Of a DNA stretch of 64,000 nucleotides, positions 4,179-18,652 are shown piece after piece (the first letter of the stretch is position 1; every line of letters begins with the position of its first letter). The DNA is taken from assembly GCF_028710345.1 (NCBI RefSeq), contig NZ_JAQTUH010000004.1:95183-159182 (forward strand). Direction: 5' to 3'. The notes below the pieces were generated by a model that did no database searches, was not told the origin of the DNA, and saw only the letters and a list, made by a program, of their open reading frames with translations. Both the position numbers and the translations under genes were made by a program. This stretch comes from Sulfuricurvum sp. (GTDB lineage Bacteria; Campylobacterota; Campylobacteria; Campylobacterales; Sulfurimonadaceae).

Positions 4179-5983
4179 AAATGCACCTCATTAATTTTTT
4201 GTTTGATCAAAGTTAAAAATTGCTCTTCACTTAGATTGTACTGTTCTCGCGATCTTCTATCTCGCACCGCAACACTTTTTGAGCCAACCTCTTCATCACC
4301 TAAAACGATGATCATCGGAACGCGCCCTTTTTCCGCCGTTCGGATACGTTTATTAAGAGAATCGTTTTTATCGAATATCTCATAGTCAGCACCCATATCG
4401 ATCAGTTTATCTCCCAACTCACGGGCATACGCGACGTGTGATTCGGCAATCGGAACGATAGCGACTTGCGTCGGAGCGATAAACATTGGGAATTCCCCAG
4501 CGTAATGCTCCGTCAATATACCAACAAAACGCTCAAAAGAACCTAAAATGGCACGATGAATCATTACAGGCTGTATTTTTGCGTTCTCTTCGCCGTTATA
4601 CTCAAGCTCAAAACGTGACGGAAGATTAAAATCGAGCTGGATTGTTCCACACTGCCATTCACGTCCGATAGCATCGGTAATTTTGATATCAATTTTAGGA
4701 CCGTAAAACGCTCCGCCCCCCTCATCAATTTCATAAGAAAGGTTATTTTTATCCATCGCCGTTTTCAATGCATTGGTCGAAATTTCCCATACCGCATCAT
4801 CACCAACCGCTTTTTCCGGCTTAGTCGAGATCATCATTTTATAATTAAACTCAAATGTTTTCATGATTTTATCTACAAAATCAACCACTTCTATAATCTG
4901 TTGTTCGATTTGATCGGCAGTACAAAAGATATGGGCATCATCTTGGGTAAATTCACGAACACGGAATAAACCGTGGAGTGCCCCAGTCATCTCATGACGG
5001 TGAACAATCCCGTACTCAAAATATTTAAGAGGAAGGTCGCGGTATGAACGTAAATCGTGTTCATAAACCTTGATGTGACCGACACAGTTCATCGGTTTTA
5101 CTCCAAACTCAATCTCATCGATATTGGTGAAATACATGTTTTCACCATAATTTTGGTAATGCCCTGATACTTTCCACAAATCACTTCGTAGCATCTCAGG
5201 ACCGCGAACCGGCTCATAACCACGTTTACGATGAGCTTTAAAAAGGAGTTGCTCTAAACGTGAACGCATACGCGCACCCGCAGGGAGCCAGATTGGGAAT
5301 CCCGCACCGACCTCTTCACGAAATGTGAAAAGTTTCATTTCGGCACCGATTTTACGGTGGTCACGTTTTTCGGCTTCCGCCATTTGATCGAGATATGCTT
5401 TTAGCGATTCTTTATCAGCAAACGCGATACCGTAAATACGGGTCAACATCTCGTTTTTGCTATCACCGCCGAGATATGCACCGGAGATTTTGGTCAATTT
5501 GAAATAACGGATCAAACCAACACTTGGTAAATGAGGTCCACGACAAAGGTCTTCAAATTGACCTTGTTTATAGATCGTTACCGTTTCAGATGGAATACGA
5601 TCCATAACCGCTTGTTTCAGATGATCGTTTGCAAATTTAACACGTGCTTCGTCTTTGGTGATCTCGTAACGCTCGATTTTCTCTTTGCCTTTGGCAATAT
5701 CGAGCATTTTTTTCTCAATCGTTTTGAGATCCTCTTCACCGATTGTTTCATTCACTTTAAAATCGTAATAAAACCCCTCTTTTACCGTTGGACCGACGAA
5801 AAATTTAGCGTCTGTATAGAGTGCTTTGATCGCTTCTGCCATCAAATGTGCACAGGAATGTCGAAGCACTTCGAGAGACTCAGGAGAGTTGTCATACACA
5901 ATCTCCTTGCCTGTAATTCCAAGTGCACCAGCGGTTTGTAAATCGATTATTTGATCGTCATGCATGAATGCAATAATATCCAT
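4175..5983 (-). CDS. thrS: Threonyl-tRNA synthetase
   Basis: Charges tRNA-Thr. The 602-residue length is the Campylobacterota size: the TGS-like N-terminus is only about 35 residues. The editing domain follows, with [11 protein letters not shown] at its start, and then the class II core with the zinc-ligand region KPMNCVGH, motif 2 (VHRHE...[12 protein letters not shown]) and motif 3 near [13 protein letters not shown], ending in an anticodon-binding domain. Its stop overlaps the infC start by 4 nt, so infC translation is probably coupled to it. A TATAAT box lies about 30 nt upstream of the start. Confidence 0.98.
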
Positions 5984-6013
5984 AGGGGTGCCTCGTATGA
6001 GAAAATATCGCGA

Positions 6014-6019
6014 ATTATA
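6014..6019 (-). promoter_or_regulatory. -10 box for thrS-infC
   Basis: TATAAT on the minus strand, 30 nt before the thrS ATG. It would give a leader of roughly 20-25 nt, too short for a T-box or a tRNA-like operator. Confidence 0.45.
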
Positions 6020-6092
6020 CGGCTTTGTTGATTGGTTTGAGTTTAAAAGAACTTTTCAAACCAAAAATAGCACTTATTTTGAAGTGGTTTAT

Positions 6093-6977
6093 CTATTTTA
6101 ACGAAACAATTACTCGATTACGACCCTCTTTTTTTGCTTTATAGAGAGCTTGATCGGCAAGATCAAGTAAATGAGTCACCGATTCAATTCCTTGATGGAA
6201 TTGAATCACTCCAAAGCTGGCCGTTACATCAAGACCCTGTGGATAATATTTCTCAATCTCTTTTCTCAGCCCTTCAGCTTTAATTTTTGCATCTTCGAGT
6301 GTGCAACTATCAAGTACCAATATAAATTCTTCCCCCCCAAAACGGGCAGCTATATCTTCTTGACGTGCTTTTTGACGAATCAAGCCTCCAATTTCACGCA
6401 ACACTTCATCACCAACGATATGTCCATACGTATCATTAATACTTTTAAAATGATCAATATCGATTATAATAATCGATAAAGGGTCGTCGTGACGCATTGC
6501 ATGTGCTACTTTCGAAGCAAGTACATCACTAAGATAATGACGATTATAAAGACCTGTTAATTGATCATGTACCGCTATCTCTTTTAAAAGATCATACTGA
6601 CGCTTGAGGGTAACATGAGTTTTTACCCGTGCTTTAACAATAGAGGGGTGAATAGGCTTAGTGATATAATCCACCGCACCCAAGGATAATCCATACCCCT
6701 CTTCCTCGATAGAATCTTTCCCCGTAACAAAAATTATGGGAATATTCGCTGTTTCACTATCTTCACGAAGCAATCGACAGACATCATATCCATTCACATC
6801 AGGCATCTCAACATCGAGCAAAATCAAATCAGGAGTTGGGTCTTGTGTTGCCAATTCTACTGCACGTGTCCCGTTATGAGCAATTTTTATAATATACTCA
6901 TTTTTGAGAATATGTGCCATCGTTTGAATATTTAACCGAGTATCATCTACAATCAGAACTACCGCTTTTTTGCTCAT
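6093..6977 (-). CDS. Response regulator with diguanylate cyclase (REC-GGDEF)
   Basis: A 294-residue cytoplasmic protein. Residues 1-120 form a receiver domain: acidic pair D11-D12, phosphoacceptor D55 in LILLDVEMPD, T85 and K107. Residues 130-294 are a GGDEF domain with GGEEF at 214-218, so it should make cyclic di-GMP. RQED at 205-208, five residues before the GGEEF, is a canonical inhibitory I-site, so product feedback is likely. Its start overlaps the stop of the upstream SPOR-HPt gene by 4 nt, which suggests that the HPt protein passes phosphate to D55. No histidine kinase is adjacent. Confidence 0.93.
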   Translation of the reverse strand: MSKKAVVLIVDDTRLNIQTMAHILKNEYIIKIAHNGTRAVELATQDPTPDLILLDVEMPDVNGYDVCRLLREDSETANIPIIFVTGKDSIEEEGYGLSLGAVDYITKPIHPSIVKARVKTHVTLKRQYDLLKEIAVHDQLTGLYNRHYLSDVLASKVAHAMRHDDPLSIIIIDIDHFKSINDTYGHIVGDEVLREIGGLIRQKARQEDIAARFGGEEFILVLDSCTLEDAKIKAEGLRKEIEKYYPQGLDVTASFGVIQFHQGIESVTHLLDLADQALYKAKKEGRNRVIVSLK

Positions 6978-8134
6978 TGAATCATCTCTTCAATACGTTC
7001 TATTAATTCGAGTGCTTTCTCATACTCAAGCTTCTCAATACTTTTTTTAAGCTCTTCTAACACAACGGCAATTTTTTCATCCGTAGCTTCATCAAAAGCA
7101 CCTAAATATCCTGCATCAATAAACAAACTTTTGTTTATATTTTGTCGTAAAAACTCAAGTTGTGTCCGAAGTTGTGTCTTCTTATCAATAAACGGGTGTG
7201 GACTTTTGGGATTCACAACGCGTTCTTTAATCAGCACTATCGTTTTATTTAAAATAGTTTCGCATTCGACAAAGACCGTCTCAACCAATAGATGATTTTT
7301 TTCCCGCGCCGCAACTTCCAATTTTTTAGAGCTCAACCGTAATGTTGTCGCTGAGACGCTAGCCGATGCACTTTTTAGCTGATGGGTTTGTTTTTGAATC
7401 TCTGCAAAATCACCTTTATCCATTGCTTCTTTAATATTATTTATGAGCCTTTGGGTATCGCGCAAAAATAAATTGATTGCACTATTTAGATTCTCCTCAT
7501 CTCCCCCTGCACGCTTAAGTGCATCTTCATAGCTCCAAGATACAAAAACATCAAAATTTGCTTTTAATTCCTCTTTATACTTGATAATTTGTTCTTTTAA
7601 TCTATCGGTTTTTTTTCCTTTACGGGTCAAAAAAAGGACTCCGATACCAACAAATACTAAAAAACCAAGCGAGACCCATATCCATGCATGACTCTTATTA
7701 TCCTCAATAGTTATTTCTATCGGAAGAGGAGTAGGAATACTCTTGGGAAGCACTTCATTTTTTATTATTGTTGGCTCAACGCTCTTATTTTTCCAAAGTA
7801 TAGAACCGTCAGTGGGTCCAAAATAACCATTAATATATGCATCAGGATATAGTTTTTTAAATTGCGTTAAAACAACCGTTGCCGATTCTTTTTTATCAAA
7901 CGGTTCTAGTGTCACGATGAATGCTTTACCCGATGGTCGCGCAAGAACTTCAAAATGGTATGCTTCTTGAAGGGCTAATTCTTTACCGCTAAATGTAGAA
8001 GCAAATAAATCCAACTTCTCTTTCGCCTCATCAAATGTACTAAAAGAGGCTAAAACAACCTTATAACCTTGTTGTTCATTGGCATATATCGTGCTAAAAG
8101 TGATTAAAAAAAGGAAAATAAAAATAGATCTCAC
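6974..8134 (-). CDS. Membrane protein: periplasmic SPOR-like domain plus cytoplasmic HPt
   Basis: 386 residues. A signal peptide occupies 1-18. A SPOR-like repeat spans about 23-104, with YKVVLASFSTFDEA and AFIVTLEPFDKKESA forming its two beta-alpha halves. One transmembrane segment lies at about 151-170, and a cytoplasmic HPt domain at about 195-300 has phospho-acceptor His251 in THQLKSASASVSA. A second helical region covers 318-386. SPOR domains usually bind denuded peptidoglycan at division sites; HPt domains relay phosphate. Joined to a diguanylate cyclase by a 4-nt overlap, this looks like a cell-wall-sensing input to c-di-GMP. The SPOR call rests on pattern only. Confidence 0.75.
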   Translation of the reverse strand: MRSIFIFLFLITFSTIYANEQQGYKVVLASFSTFDEAKEKLDLFASTFSGKELALQEAYHFEVLARPSGKAFIVTLEPFDKKESATVVLTQFKKLYPDAYINGYFGPTDGSILWKNKSVEPTIIKNEVLPKSIPTPLPIEITIEDNKSHAWIWVSLGFLVFVGIGVLFLTRKGKKTDRLKEQIIKYKEELKANFDVFVSWSYEDALKRAGGDEENLNSAINLFLRDTQRLINNIKEAMDKGDFAEIQKQTHQLKSASASVSATTLRLSSKKLEVAAREKNHLLVETVFVECETILNKTIVLIKERVVNPKSPHPFIDKKTQLRTQLEFLRQNINKSLFIDAGYLGAFDEATDEKIAVVLEELKKSIEKLEYEKALELIERIEEMIQ

Positions 8135-15672: not shown

Positions 15673-17148
15673 TTATTTGAGTAAATCCGCTCGAGGGAAA
15701 GTAAATGTTGATTGTCGAATAACCGCAACTTTATCTTTTGCATCGGTTGCGTACGCTTTAATCGTAATCGGAATAACGGTATCTTTACGATCATCAGTGA
15801 CTAAAGTCTCATCCGTATACAAAACAACCACTTTTTTCTTCACAACACCTGGTTTCACTTGGAATGGTTCAGTCGGATTACCAATTTTGATTTTACCTTC
15901 CATCCCTTGTGGAGCAACTATATCAAAATAATAATCATGGTCTTCATTTAATGTATTTTGCAACAAGAACGTATACGCATTATCAACACGTACTTTCCCC
16001 TCATCCAATTGATGAATCGAATAGAGACGATTTTCTTTATTGATGTTGAGGAGCATATACTCTTTTTTACTTCCCATCATTACCAAAATAACCGAGACTA
16101 TTACCAAGATTACCATATAACCGATAATTTTCGGACGGAGATAATGGGTTTTCCCTTTCATATAGAGAGTCTCTTTTTCACTCGACCACTCAACCAATGA
16201 AGGTTTACCAAGTTTACCCATAACCTCTGTACATGCATCAACACACTCTAAACAGTTGATACACTCGAGTTGCAACCCTTTGCGAATATCGATATGGGTA
16301 GGACAAACCGTTACACAGCTCTCACATGTCGTACACTCTGCATTGGTATTGACAGCAAGAAGATCTTTTTGTTTGGTAAACATTTTCTCTTTTTGGTCAT
16401 TATAAATCTCACCGCCACGGTTTGGATTATAGACTGCCATAACCGTATCATCATCATAAAGAACCGATTGAATACGAGAATAAGGACAAACATAAACACA
16501 AAAATTCTCTTGCAAGAAAATAACATCATAAACTAAAAATAGGACTATTCCTACAATCGCACCCACAAGAACGGTATGTTCCATCGGGTTTTGGATGTAC
16601 GCCAAGAAATCCTCAGGAGGGACAAAATACCACATCAAATCGGCAGCAGCGATAAACGCCAATCCCGTCCAAATCAAAATCGCCACAAGACGTTTAATTT
16701 TATTCTCTACTTTTGAGTAATCAGGTTCTTGTTGCTTGTTTTTAATCCGCTTGCGAAGACCTAAAATCGTTGTTTCAATCAAATCACGGTAGACAACACG
16801 AAAGATAGTCTGTGGACACATCCATCCACAGAAAACACGTCCGCCCAATACCGTAATACCGAAAATTCCGATGAAAAGAATCATCAGCAAGAACGGCATC
16901 AAATAGAGCTCTTGCATATCAAATTGAATGAACATCAAATGCAATTTCAATTTATCAAAACTTAGCAAGAAAAGATGGTTTCCATCAATGGTGATCCATG
17001 GAATCACTAATGCTATAACTGTTACGATCCCATAAAACCAGTAGCGCTTAAGACGCCACGACACCCATCCTGCCAAATACTCTTTCCCTTTTGGGGATAC
17101 AGTTTCTTCACTCATTATACGACCTCCATCATATTTTTGATTAATCAA
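15673..17148 (-). CDS. ccoG: Cytochrome oxidase accessory protein CcoG (RdxA/FixG)
   Basis: Membrane iron-sulfur protein needed for copper handling in cbb3 oxidase assembly. 491 residues with about five transmembrane segments, the FCGWMCPQT motif in a membrane loop, and a cytoplasmic double [4Fe-4S] ferredoxin region (CTTCESCVTVCP and CINCLECVDAC). The last ~120 residues form the periplasmic Ig-like domain common to the family. Its start overlaps the stop of the resolvase-like gene by 8 nt, so that protein is probably made together with it. The ccoNOPQ operon is outside the window. Confidence 0.95.
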   Translation of the reverse strand: MINQKYDGGRIMSEETVSPKGKEYLAGWVSWRLKRYWFYGIVTVIALVIPWITIDGNHLFLLSFDKLKLHLMFIQFDMQELYLMPFLLMILFIGIFGITVLGGRVFCGWMCPQTIFRVVYRDLIETTILGLRKRIKNKQQEPDYSKVENKIKRLVAILIWTGLAFIAAADLMWYFVPPEDFLAYIQNPMEHTVLVGAIVGIVLFLVYDVIFLQENFCVYVCPYSRIQSVLYDDDTVMAVYNPNRGGEIYNDQKEKMFTKQKDLLAVNTNAECTTCESCVTVCPTHIDIRKGLQLECINCLECVDACTEVMGKLGKPSLVEWSSEKETLYMKGKTHYLRPKIIGYMVILVIVSVILVMMGSKKEYMLLNINKENRLYSIHQLDEGKVRVDNAYTFLLQNTLNEDHDYYFDIVAPQGMEGKIKIGNPTEPFQVKPGVVKKKVVVLYTDETLVTDDRKDTVIPITIKAYATDAKDKVAVIRQSTFTFPRADLLK

Positions 17149-17779
17149 TTGGACAACGAATCGTCCCTATCACCATAGCTTCAGCATCTTCATTCTCACC
17201 CAATCCGATGACACCGTTAACGACCTCTTTTAGTTCACGCGATTCAATATAATCTTTAAGGGAACTCCGACTAACCCCCATCACGCGGGCAATTTCACTC
17301 ACACTTTTCCGTTTTTTCAACAAATCAATAATCTGTTCCAAATGAACATCAAATTTTGAAGAAGATTTAGATCCACGTGGTCGTCCAATCCCTTTTTTTG
17401 CATCATCCTGAAGAATCTGTCGTAATTGATCGATAAGTCCTAAGACTACCATTGTATCACTATTACGGTCGATTATGACTCCTTGTTTTACAAAATGGAT
17501 CGTATTATTATTTTTCAAAAGACAGCTAAACATTTGAACAACGTCTTCGATACAGTTACTGAGCGTCCAAGTATCGTAAACCAATAACGTATCGCCATTT
17601 AAAGAACGAAAAAATCGTACTACTTCATGCCGATCTACTAACCGTTTATTTTGGGACGTCTGATCAACAAGCTCTTCATTGATCATAATCTCTTTTTGGT
17701 CAGCATAACCGTTAATTAATTTAAGCTGTTCATAGACACCGTCAAAATCTTTATCCGGACGGATGTAACTTACAACCAT
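17141..17779 (-). CDS. Serine-recombinase-like DNA-binding protein, catalytically degenerate
   Basis: 212 residues. The N-terminal half has the resolvase/invertase fold (SYIRPDKDF; GDTLLVYDTWTLSNCIED; QLRQILQDDAKKGIGRPRG) and the C-terminal part a Hin-like helix-turn-helix (SVSEIARVMGVSRSSLKDYI, 159-178). The catalytic serine of the YxRxS motif is Asp9, and both arginines of the DRLGR motif are gone (DTWTLSN, 69-75). It should bind DNA but not recombine it, so it is more likely a regulator. It overlaps ccoG by 8 nt and has an inverted repeat over its own ribosome site, pointing to autoregulation and control of ccoG. Confidence 0.8.
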   Translation of the reverse strand: MVVSYIRPDKDFDGVYEQLKLINGYADQKEIMINEELVDQTSQNKRLVDRHEVVRFFRSLNGDTLLVYDTWTLSNCIEDVVQMFSCLLKNNNTIHFVKQGVIIDRNSDTMVVLGLIDQLRQILQDDAKKGIGRPRGSKSSSKFDVHLEQIIDLLKKRKSVSEIARVMGVSRSSLKDYIESRELKEVVNGVIGLGENEDAEAMVIGTIRCPID

Positions 17780-17781
17780 AG

Positions 17782-17841
17782 CGATTAAATTCCTTTATCT
17801 ATTGAATTTAATCGTCATAATACCCCATATAGACGATTAAA
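17782..17841. promoter_or_regulatory. Candidate operator of the resolvase-like regulator
   Basis: CGATTAAATTC at 17782-17792 and GAATTTAATCG at 17804-17814 form a perfect 11-bp inverted repeat with an 11-nt spacer, so the arms are 22 bp apart centre to centre, two helical turns. A third box, CGATTAAAG, lies at 17833-17841. The first arm covers the ribosome site just before the regulator's ATG. The layout resembles resolvase-type sites and would allow self-repression. Confidence 0.7.
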
Positions 17842-17866
17842 GTCAATATAAAAACTATTTAAAGCG

Positions 17867-18652
17867 TCAGTTCTTATAATTTATGAGGACAATTTCGCAC
17901 TGAAGCTCAATATTAAATATCTCGCTAACCCGTTTTTGAGCTTCATTAATCAAGTAAAGAGCATCCTCATAGGTACCACCCCCATAATTGACCAAAAAAT
18001 TTGCATGAACTTCACTGAAACTCATTGCCCCTTTTCGCTCCCCCTTTAATCCAACCGCTTCGATTAAACGTCCGGCATAATCGTTCGGAGGGTTTTTAAA
18101 ACAACTTCCCGCGCTGGGCTCATGTGGCTGATTTGAACGCATTTGGTTAAACAGCTCATATCGCTCAACCGAATACCCACGATCAGCTTCAAACACCGCT
18201 TCAAAGATTACTTCATTGATAGAGGTTTTGCGATAACCGTATTCAATTTCACTTTTTTGCTTCCAACCGCTTTGGGTGCGAACGGCAATAAGATGGTTAA
18301 AAATCTCATACTCTTTCAGCCCTGCATTCATTTTGAGCATTCCCCCGAGTGTTCCGGGGAGTTTGGAGAGGTATTCAAAATGGGCGATATCGTTCTTTTT
18401 ACAAAACGATACGACACGCCCTCCAGGAGTTGCCGCACCAATATGGAGACCATCCTCTTCGAGAGCGATAAAATCATACTCTTTAGAGAGAATCATGAGC
18501 GGCGGTGGGGTGGGAGAGATAAGAACGTTATTCGCCGAACCGATGATTAAATGCCCATCGGGGACAACATCATTTTCGATGAGGGCAACGTCTACAACAG
18601 GACCGATACGGATAGAGGCAAATTTGGAGAAATCGATGGTTTTGGTATTCAT
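17867..18652 (-). CDS. murB: UDP-N-acetylenolpyruvoylglucosamine reductase
   Basis: FAD enzyme that makes UDP-N-acetylmuramate. 261 residues, the short form of the phylum. Marks are the FAD-binding IGSANNVLISP, the GLPGTLGG equivalent (KLPGTLGGMLKMNAG), the YGYRKTSI substrate tyrosine region and SAGSCFKNP with the catalytic Ser. Its ATG overlaps the fliQ stop as ATGA. Same order as in Campylobacter. Confidence 0.96.
   Translation of the reverse strand: MNTKTIDFSKFASIRIGPVVDVALIENDVVPDGHLIIGSANNVLISPTPPPLMILSKEYDFIALEEDGLHIGAATPGGRVVSFCKKNDIAHFEYLSKLPGTLGGMLKMNAGLKEYEIFNHLIAVRTQSGWKQKSEIEYGYRKTSINEVIFEAVFEADRGYSVERYELFNQMRSNQPHEPSAGSCFKNPPNDYAGRLIEAVGLKGERKGAMSFSEVHANFLVNYGGGTYEDALYLINEAQKRVSEIFNIELQCEIVLINYKN

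Follow-up and report, generated by a model that had tools for sequence, protein, structure and literature searches.

We propose that a protein encoded in a 64,000-nt stretch of Sulfuricurvum DNA (the window), here called R, is a domesticated serine recombinase that no longer cleaves DNA and now probably acts as a one-component transcription factor, co-controlling the assembly of the cbb3 oxidase and a set of alternative respiratory genes. R lies between murB and ccoG, and the three genes are read from the same strand:

15673-17115, minus strand: ccoG, cbb3 oxidase assembly gene (FixG/CcoG; domains Fer4_18, FixG_C and Fer4_5), probable start ATG 17115
17141-17779, minus strand: R, a 212-residue protein of the serine recombinase fold without the catalytic Ser10, Arg68 and Arg71 (open reading frame, Pfam, alignment, Foldseek); Arg7, Gln18 and Arg50 are retained, a GRPRG linker spans residues 132-136 and a helix-turn-helix (HTH) about 148-185, and Cys86 and Cys209 are near-invariant
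17867-18652, minus strand: murB, the upstream neighbour of R (open reading frame)

Fold and loss of the catalytic residues

The resolvase fold and HTH claimed in the original prediction are borne out. The Pfam Resolvase domain scores just over its cut-off, and HTH_7 and several other HTH models give matches below theirs. An AlphaFold model made with 18 close sequences as input is weak (pLDDT 57.5), and the best solved structures found for it by Foldseek, at this low confidence, are the Tn3, gamma-delta and Sin resolvases. As a fold, R is thus predicted to be a serine recombinase, with a Resolvase-type N-terminal domain followed by the HTH. The NCBIfam model for the Mpi invertase (NF009949), with a cut-off of 272 bits, scores R at only 45, which places R outside that family. 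Genes for R are likely to be annotated as recombinases at present.

Alignment to gamma-delta resolvase and Hin agrees with the proposed replacement of the catalytic serine by Asp9 and of the DRLGR arginines by DTWTLSN: Asp9 stands in the Ser10 column, and Thr and Asn stand in those of Arg68 and Arg71. The helix-E region is shorter by about 14 residues, and the equivalents of Arg45, Gln19 and Arg8 are retained as Arg50, Gln18 and Arg7. Across Campylobacterota, 88 distinct orthologues lack both Arg68 and Arg71, and 87 of them lack Ser10; a single one aligns a serine there, and position 10 is Asp in 31 and otherwise mixed. Arg45 is present in all 88, whereas Arg8 is found in 70 and replaced by Lys in 16. 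No DRLGR-like motif occurs in any of the 88, even at a shifted place, so that homologues with an intact serine and displaced arginines are absent from the R family and an active recombinase with shifted residues is ruled out. In a tree, R forms one clade (support 100/100) separate from intact recombinases. Strong purifying selection, with dN/dS of 0.02-0.07 where dS could be estimated, excludes a recent pseudogene, and together with the counts at positions 10, 68 and 71 it indicates that the loss of residues is neither chance nor local decay.

The most conserved parts of R are the HTH and the DNA-binding linker. The linker residues GRP.G..S.S..D and the HTH residues R171, S173, D176, S180 and R181 are invariant among the 88 orthologues; Cys86 is kept in 87 and Cys209 in 86. 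The loss of the catalytic residues is old and selected, and the predicted DNA-binding parts have been kept.

Linkage to ccoG

CcoG acts as a cupric reductase in the assembly of the cbb3 oxidase (PMC8267372). Orthologues of R (E below about 1e-20) are found in about 100 of 397 sampled Campylobacterota genomes and ccoG in 381, and this far wider spread makes R an optional partner of ccoG. Among 88 loci with R, 87, which represent eleven families, have ccoG directly downstream on the same strand, mostly no more than some tens of bases away. The neighbourhood survey therefore upholds the predicted linkage in other genomes, and we reject chance association. The only unlinked locus belongs to G052 (L057, G052:C144), where another gene neighbours R; R itself is truncated there, stopping at a TAG before the C-terminal cysteine tail. 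At another locus (L086, genome G191; about 5300-6020 and 6850-7760, R on the plus strand) the ccoG beside R looks frameshifted, by a real event or an assembly error; the genome holds another FixG_C match, and a flavoprotein resembling sulfide:quinone oxidoreductase (SQR), similar to that of the second target described below, follows ccoG.

The 8-nt overlap of R with ccoG that had been described is doubtful. It requires a TTG start at 17148, whereas ATG 17115, preceded by GGAGG at 17123-17127, is the most likely start of ccoG and leaves a gap of 25 nt. Overlaps of 1-11 nt are found in relatives.

An inverted repeat over the R promoter

The region upstream of R carries the following elements:

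17831-17869, minus strand: putative operator O1, a 39-bp inverted repeat TGACG...CGTCT (model match, E 1.8e-6)
17841-17846, minus strand: -35 box TTGACT inside O1
17817-17822, minus strand: probable -10 box TATTAT, read from the sequence (TATAAT-like in relatives)
17779-17817, minus strand: putative operator O2, another 39-bp inverted repeat, starting at the -10 box and ending on the first start-codon base (model match on the other strand, E 1e-4)

A 39-bp inverted repeat, TGACG-N29-CGTCA, lies over the -35 box of the R promoter; its right half overlaps the box and the -10 comes after it. The sequence TGACGAAAAAA ... TTGACTTTnnTCGTCA recurs upstream of R through the phylum. In the window, O1 has one mismatch in its last half-site, and O2 begins 52 bp downstream of O1, an arrangement also seen in relatives of the window's family. 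The 150 bp before R contain the degenerate form TGRCG-N28-30-CRYCA at 80 of 88 loci, with 0.0026 expected per locus and 14 occurrences elsewhere in the same loci (817 kb), part of this conservation being the -35 box itself. The repeats occupy fixed positions in R promoters. Crossover sites of known recombinases measure 28 bp, and the 39-bp spacing of the operator is longer, a point against the model proposed here.

Inverted repeats over the -35 and -10 boxes of a gene's own promoter are the layout expected of an autorepressor. Together O1 and O2 span the -35, border on the -10 and run as far as the start codon, so that a protein bound there should keep the R-ccoG operon repressed. R is probably an autorepressor; we infer both that R itself is the binder and that it represses rather than activates.

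Recurring target operons

An operator model, using sequence only and built from 42 R promoters, was run on whole genomes, with stricter filters in the scan covering the genomes with R. Strong sites fall most often, by a wide margin, at the R promoter. Two further targets recur, and all of their sites lie outside the training set of the model. The first comprises a Pyr_redox_2 flavoprotein resembling SQR, a FeMo-Co-like protein (PF02579) and DUF6858, and in three loci (L145, L173 and L175) cydAB is part of the cluster. In these loci (L175 4672-7131; L173; L145 1726-3935) the genes behind the operator encode the FeMo-Co-like protein, a lipoprotein, DUF6858, the SQR-like flavoprotein, a c-type cytochrome and CydAB. 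The second target is an M48-peptidase operon in several genera, where the sites have weak model scores. The best-scoring operator of the whole scan lies in another family, before the FeMo-Co-like gene and cydAB of G052.

In the window's genome, the flavoprotein site (G000:C1:430919-430957) is matched by model and pattern and the M48 site (G000:C2:222553-222591) by pattern only, at the same promoter as in other genera. The genome-wide model scan found no strong operator in this genome beyond the R and flavoprotein promoters. The bare pattern TGACGN{27,31}CGTCA is not enriched there (7 matches against 9 in the backward control), and the evidence therefore lies in conservation at orthologous promoters. 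Matches within coding sequence in L143, L169 and G215 were judged to be chance.

Do the sites follow the presence of R? Within the window's family, 20 of the 37 genomes that have R, and none of the 19 that lack it, show additional strong sites (E < 0.005, assigned by hand; Fisher 2e-5). Genomes lacking R still have the M48 gene, and no operator was seen at the ten of their M48 promoters that were read; the resulting contrast (6 of 6 with R, 0 of 10 without) is biased because the six loci with R were picked from motif matches, and the 20/37 versus 0/19 comparison is fairer. The Sulfuricurvum genome G018 has neither R nor its promoter nor any strong operator, and murB is followed directly by ccoG there. 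Over all genomes scanned, a strong site occurs somewhere in 58 of 63 with R, mostly at R's own promoter, and in 1 of 25 without, where it falls inside a ribosomal-protein gene; the former count is partly circular, as the model was trained on R promoters. The sequences themselves show that regulator and sites are absent together; they also show the loss of the catalytic residues, the conservation of R, its linkage to ccoG, the conserved operator and the recurring target operons. That R regulates transcription, as first suggested, is a computational inference supported by the conserved operator at its own promoter, copies of this operator before further operons, among them the cytochrome bd cluster, and the missing operators of genomes without R.

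Against the regulon stand the low scores of the M48 sites (in the window's genome matched by pattern only), the genomes with R in which no second target is seen, and G052, whose R is cut short and away from ccoG although its cydAB genes are preceded by the best operator. R might then control only itself and ccoG, in a local, autogenous manner, the other sites being due to chance or to another regulator. The predominance of the R promoter among strong sites, the several genomes with R that have no second site in the genome-wide model scan and the weak M48 scores would fit such a role, but second sites recur before orthologous genes, in the window's family they occur only in genomes with R, and the top site of the scan precedes cydAB in another family; we consider this restricted role unlikely. 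The operator could instead belong to an unrelated factor, for example one responsive to oxygen or redox state, with R a non-catalytic partner or architectural protein whose main job lies elsewhere near CcoG. Genomes without R that retain ccoG and the M48 gene have no sites, and the strongest conservation in R falls on its HTH and DNA-binding linker, which makes this explanation very improbable. That R remains a recombinase which inverts or resolves DNA in the vicinity of ccoG through an unusual active site or an active partner subunit, is scarcely credible: the Arg45, Gln19 and Arg8 equivalents are retained and some genomes of the genus hold intact Mpi-like invertases (L061, L062), but the family has no conserved nucleophile at position 10, no DRLGR-like motif and a shortened helix-E region, the repeats sit at fixed promoter positions, and intact invertases match in few genomes of the genus.

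A model for R

How would a recombinase without catalysis control respiratory genes? In our model of R as a transcription factor, strand cleavage would have been lost from an invertase- or resolvase-type ancestor and sequence-specific DNA binding would remain. A dimer of R would sit on the 39-bp inverted repeat through its HTH and a GRPKG minor-groove arm and block RNA polymerase. A redox, sulfide or metal signal may be received through Cys86 and Cys209 or the relic active-site pocket, all of which are candidates only. R is kept beside ccoG and a matching 39-bp site stands at its own promoter and before other operons with respiratory and membrane functions, and so R is very probably a gene switch. 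Given similar sites before the flavoprotein/cyd cluster and the M48 operon, it probably adjusts cbb3 oxidase assembly in concert with a set of alternative respiratory genes; as CcoG serves cbb3 assembly and the second targets include the flavoprotein and cytochrome bd, R may balance two oxidase branches.

Relation to known systems

The closest parallel is TnpR of Tn3 and gamma-delta at res, which has the same fold and domain order. TnpR binds inverted repeats overlapping its own promoter and represses it, as R is presumed to do; Tn3 resolvase autoregulates tnpR and tnpA (PMC7157771), and Sin represses a promoter over which it is bound (PMC2428073). The principle is therefore not wholly new, Tn3 resolvase being already both recombinase and regulator. 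TnpR is, however, an active transposon recombinase, whereas R lacks the catalytic residues, is chromosomal, has been retained next to ccoG by vertical descent and has further putative targets. By sequence, the Mpi-type invertases (NF009949) and Hin provide the best family model, from which R differs in its low score, the loss of Ser10, R68 and R71 and the shorter helix E. Two genomes of the genus carry intact Mpi-like invertases (RVST, SRLGR) on small contigs (L061, G035:C31; L062, G025:C68); their HTH and linker (SKxD...SR) are similar to those of R, and invertases of this type are candidates for the ancestral type.

A second degenerate group of serine recombinases (L060, L196-L201, L203, L204, L206, L207 and L212) is found in one other family of the phylum. 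Its Ser10 is mostly Asn and Arg68 is Val, Arg71 and helix E are kept, and it has a conserved chromosomal place away from ccoG, between a ubiX-coaD-tmk side and an rplI-hslVU side. This group may represent a parallel domestication.

Recruitment of DNA-binding proteins from mobile elements as host transcription factors is a general idea that R shares with a review (PMC8987985), in the consulted part of which the recruited regulators are of Xre or RHH type and the serine recombinases are active invertases or integrases. A review of respiratory regulation in Campylobacterota (PMC6682613) mentions neither ccoG nor a resolvase. Within open-licence papers, we found nothing relevant linking ccoG or Campylobacterota with a resolvase, and no earlier account of a catalytically dead recombinase that serves throughout a phylum as a dedicated regulator and is encoded next to a respiratory gene.

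What are the implications for respiration in this phylum? Tentatively, and with rather less confidence than we place in R as a regulator, we speculate that, in much of Campylobacterota, a family of dead-recombinase transcription factors coordinates cbb3 assembly and bd-type respiration, sensing redox state, sulfide or copper via the relic pocket or the two near-invariant cysteines. If our model is true, R would found a new transcription factor family, derived from a resolvase that lost catalysis, chromosomal and conserved through a phylum. It would be a candidate regulator for cbb3 assembly, with a directly testable operator and regulon, for which the genomes without R would serve as a natural control.
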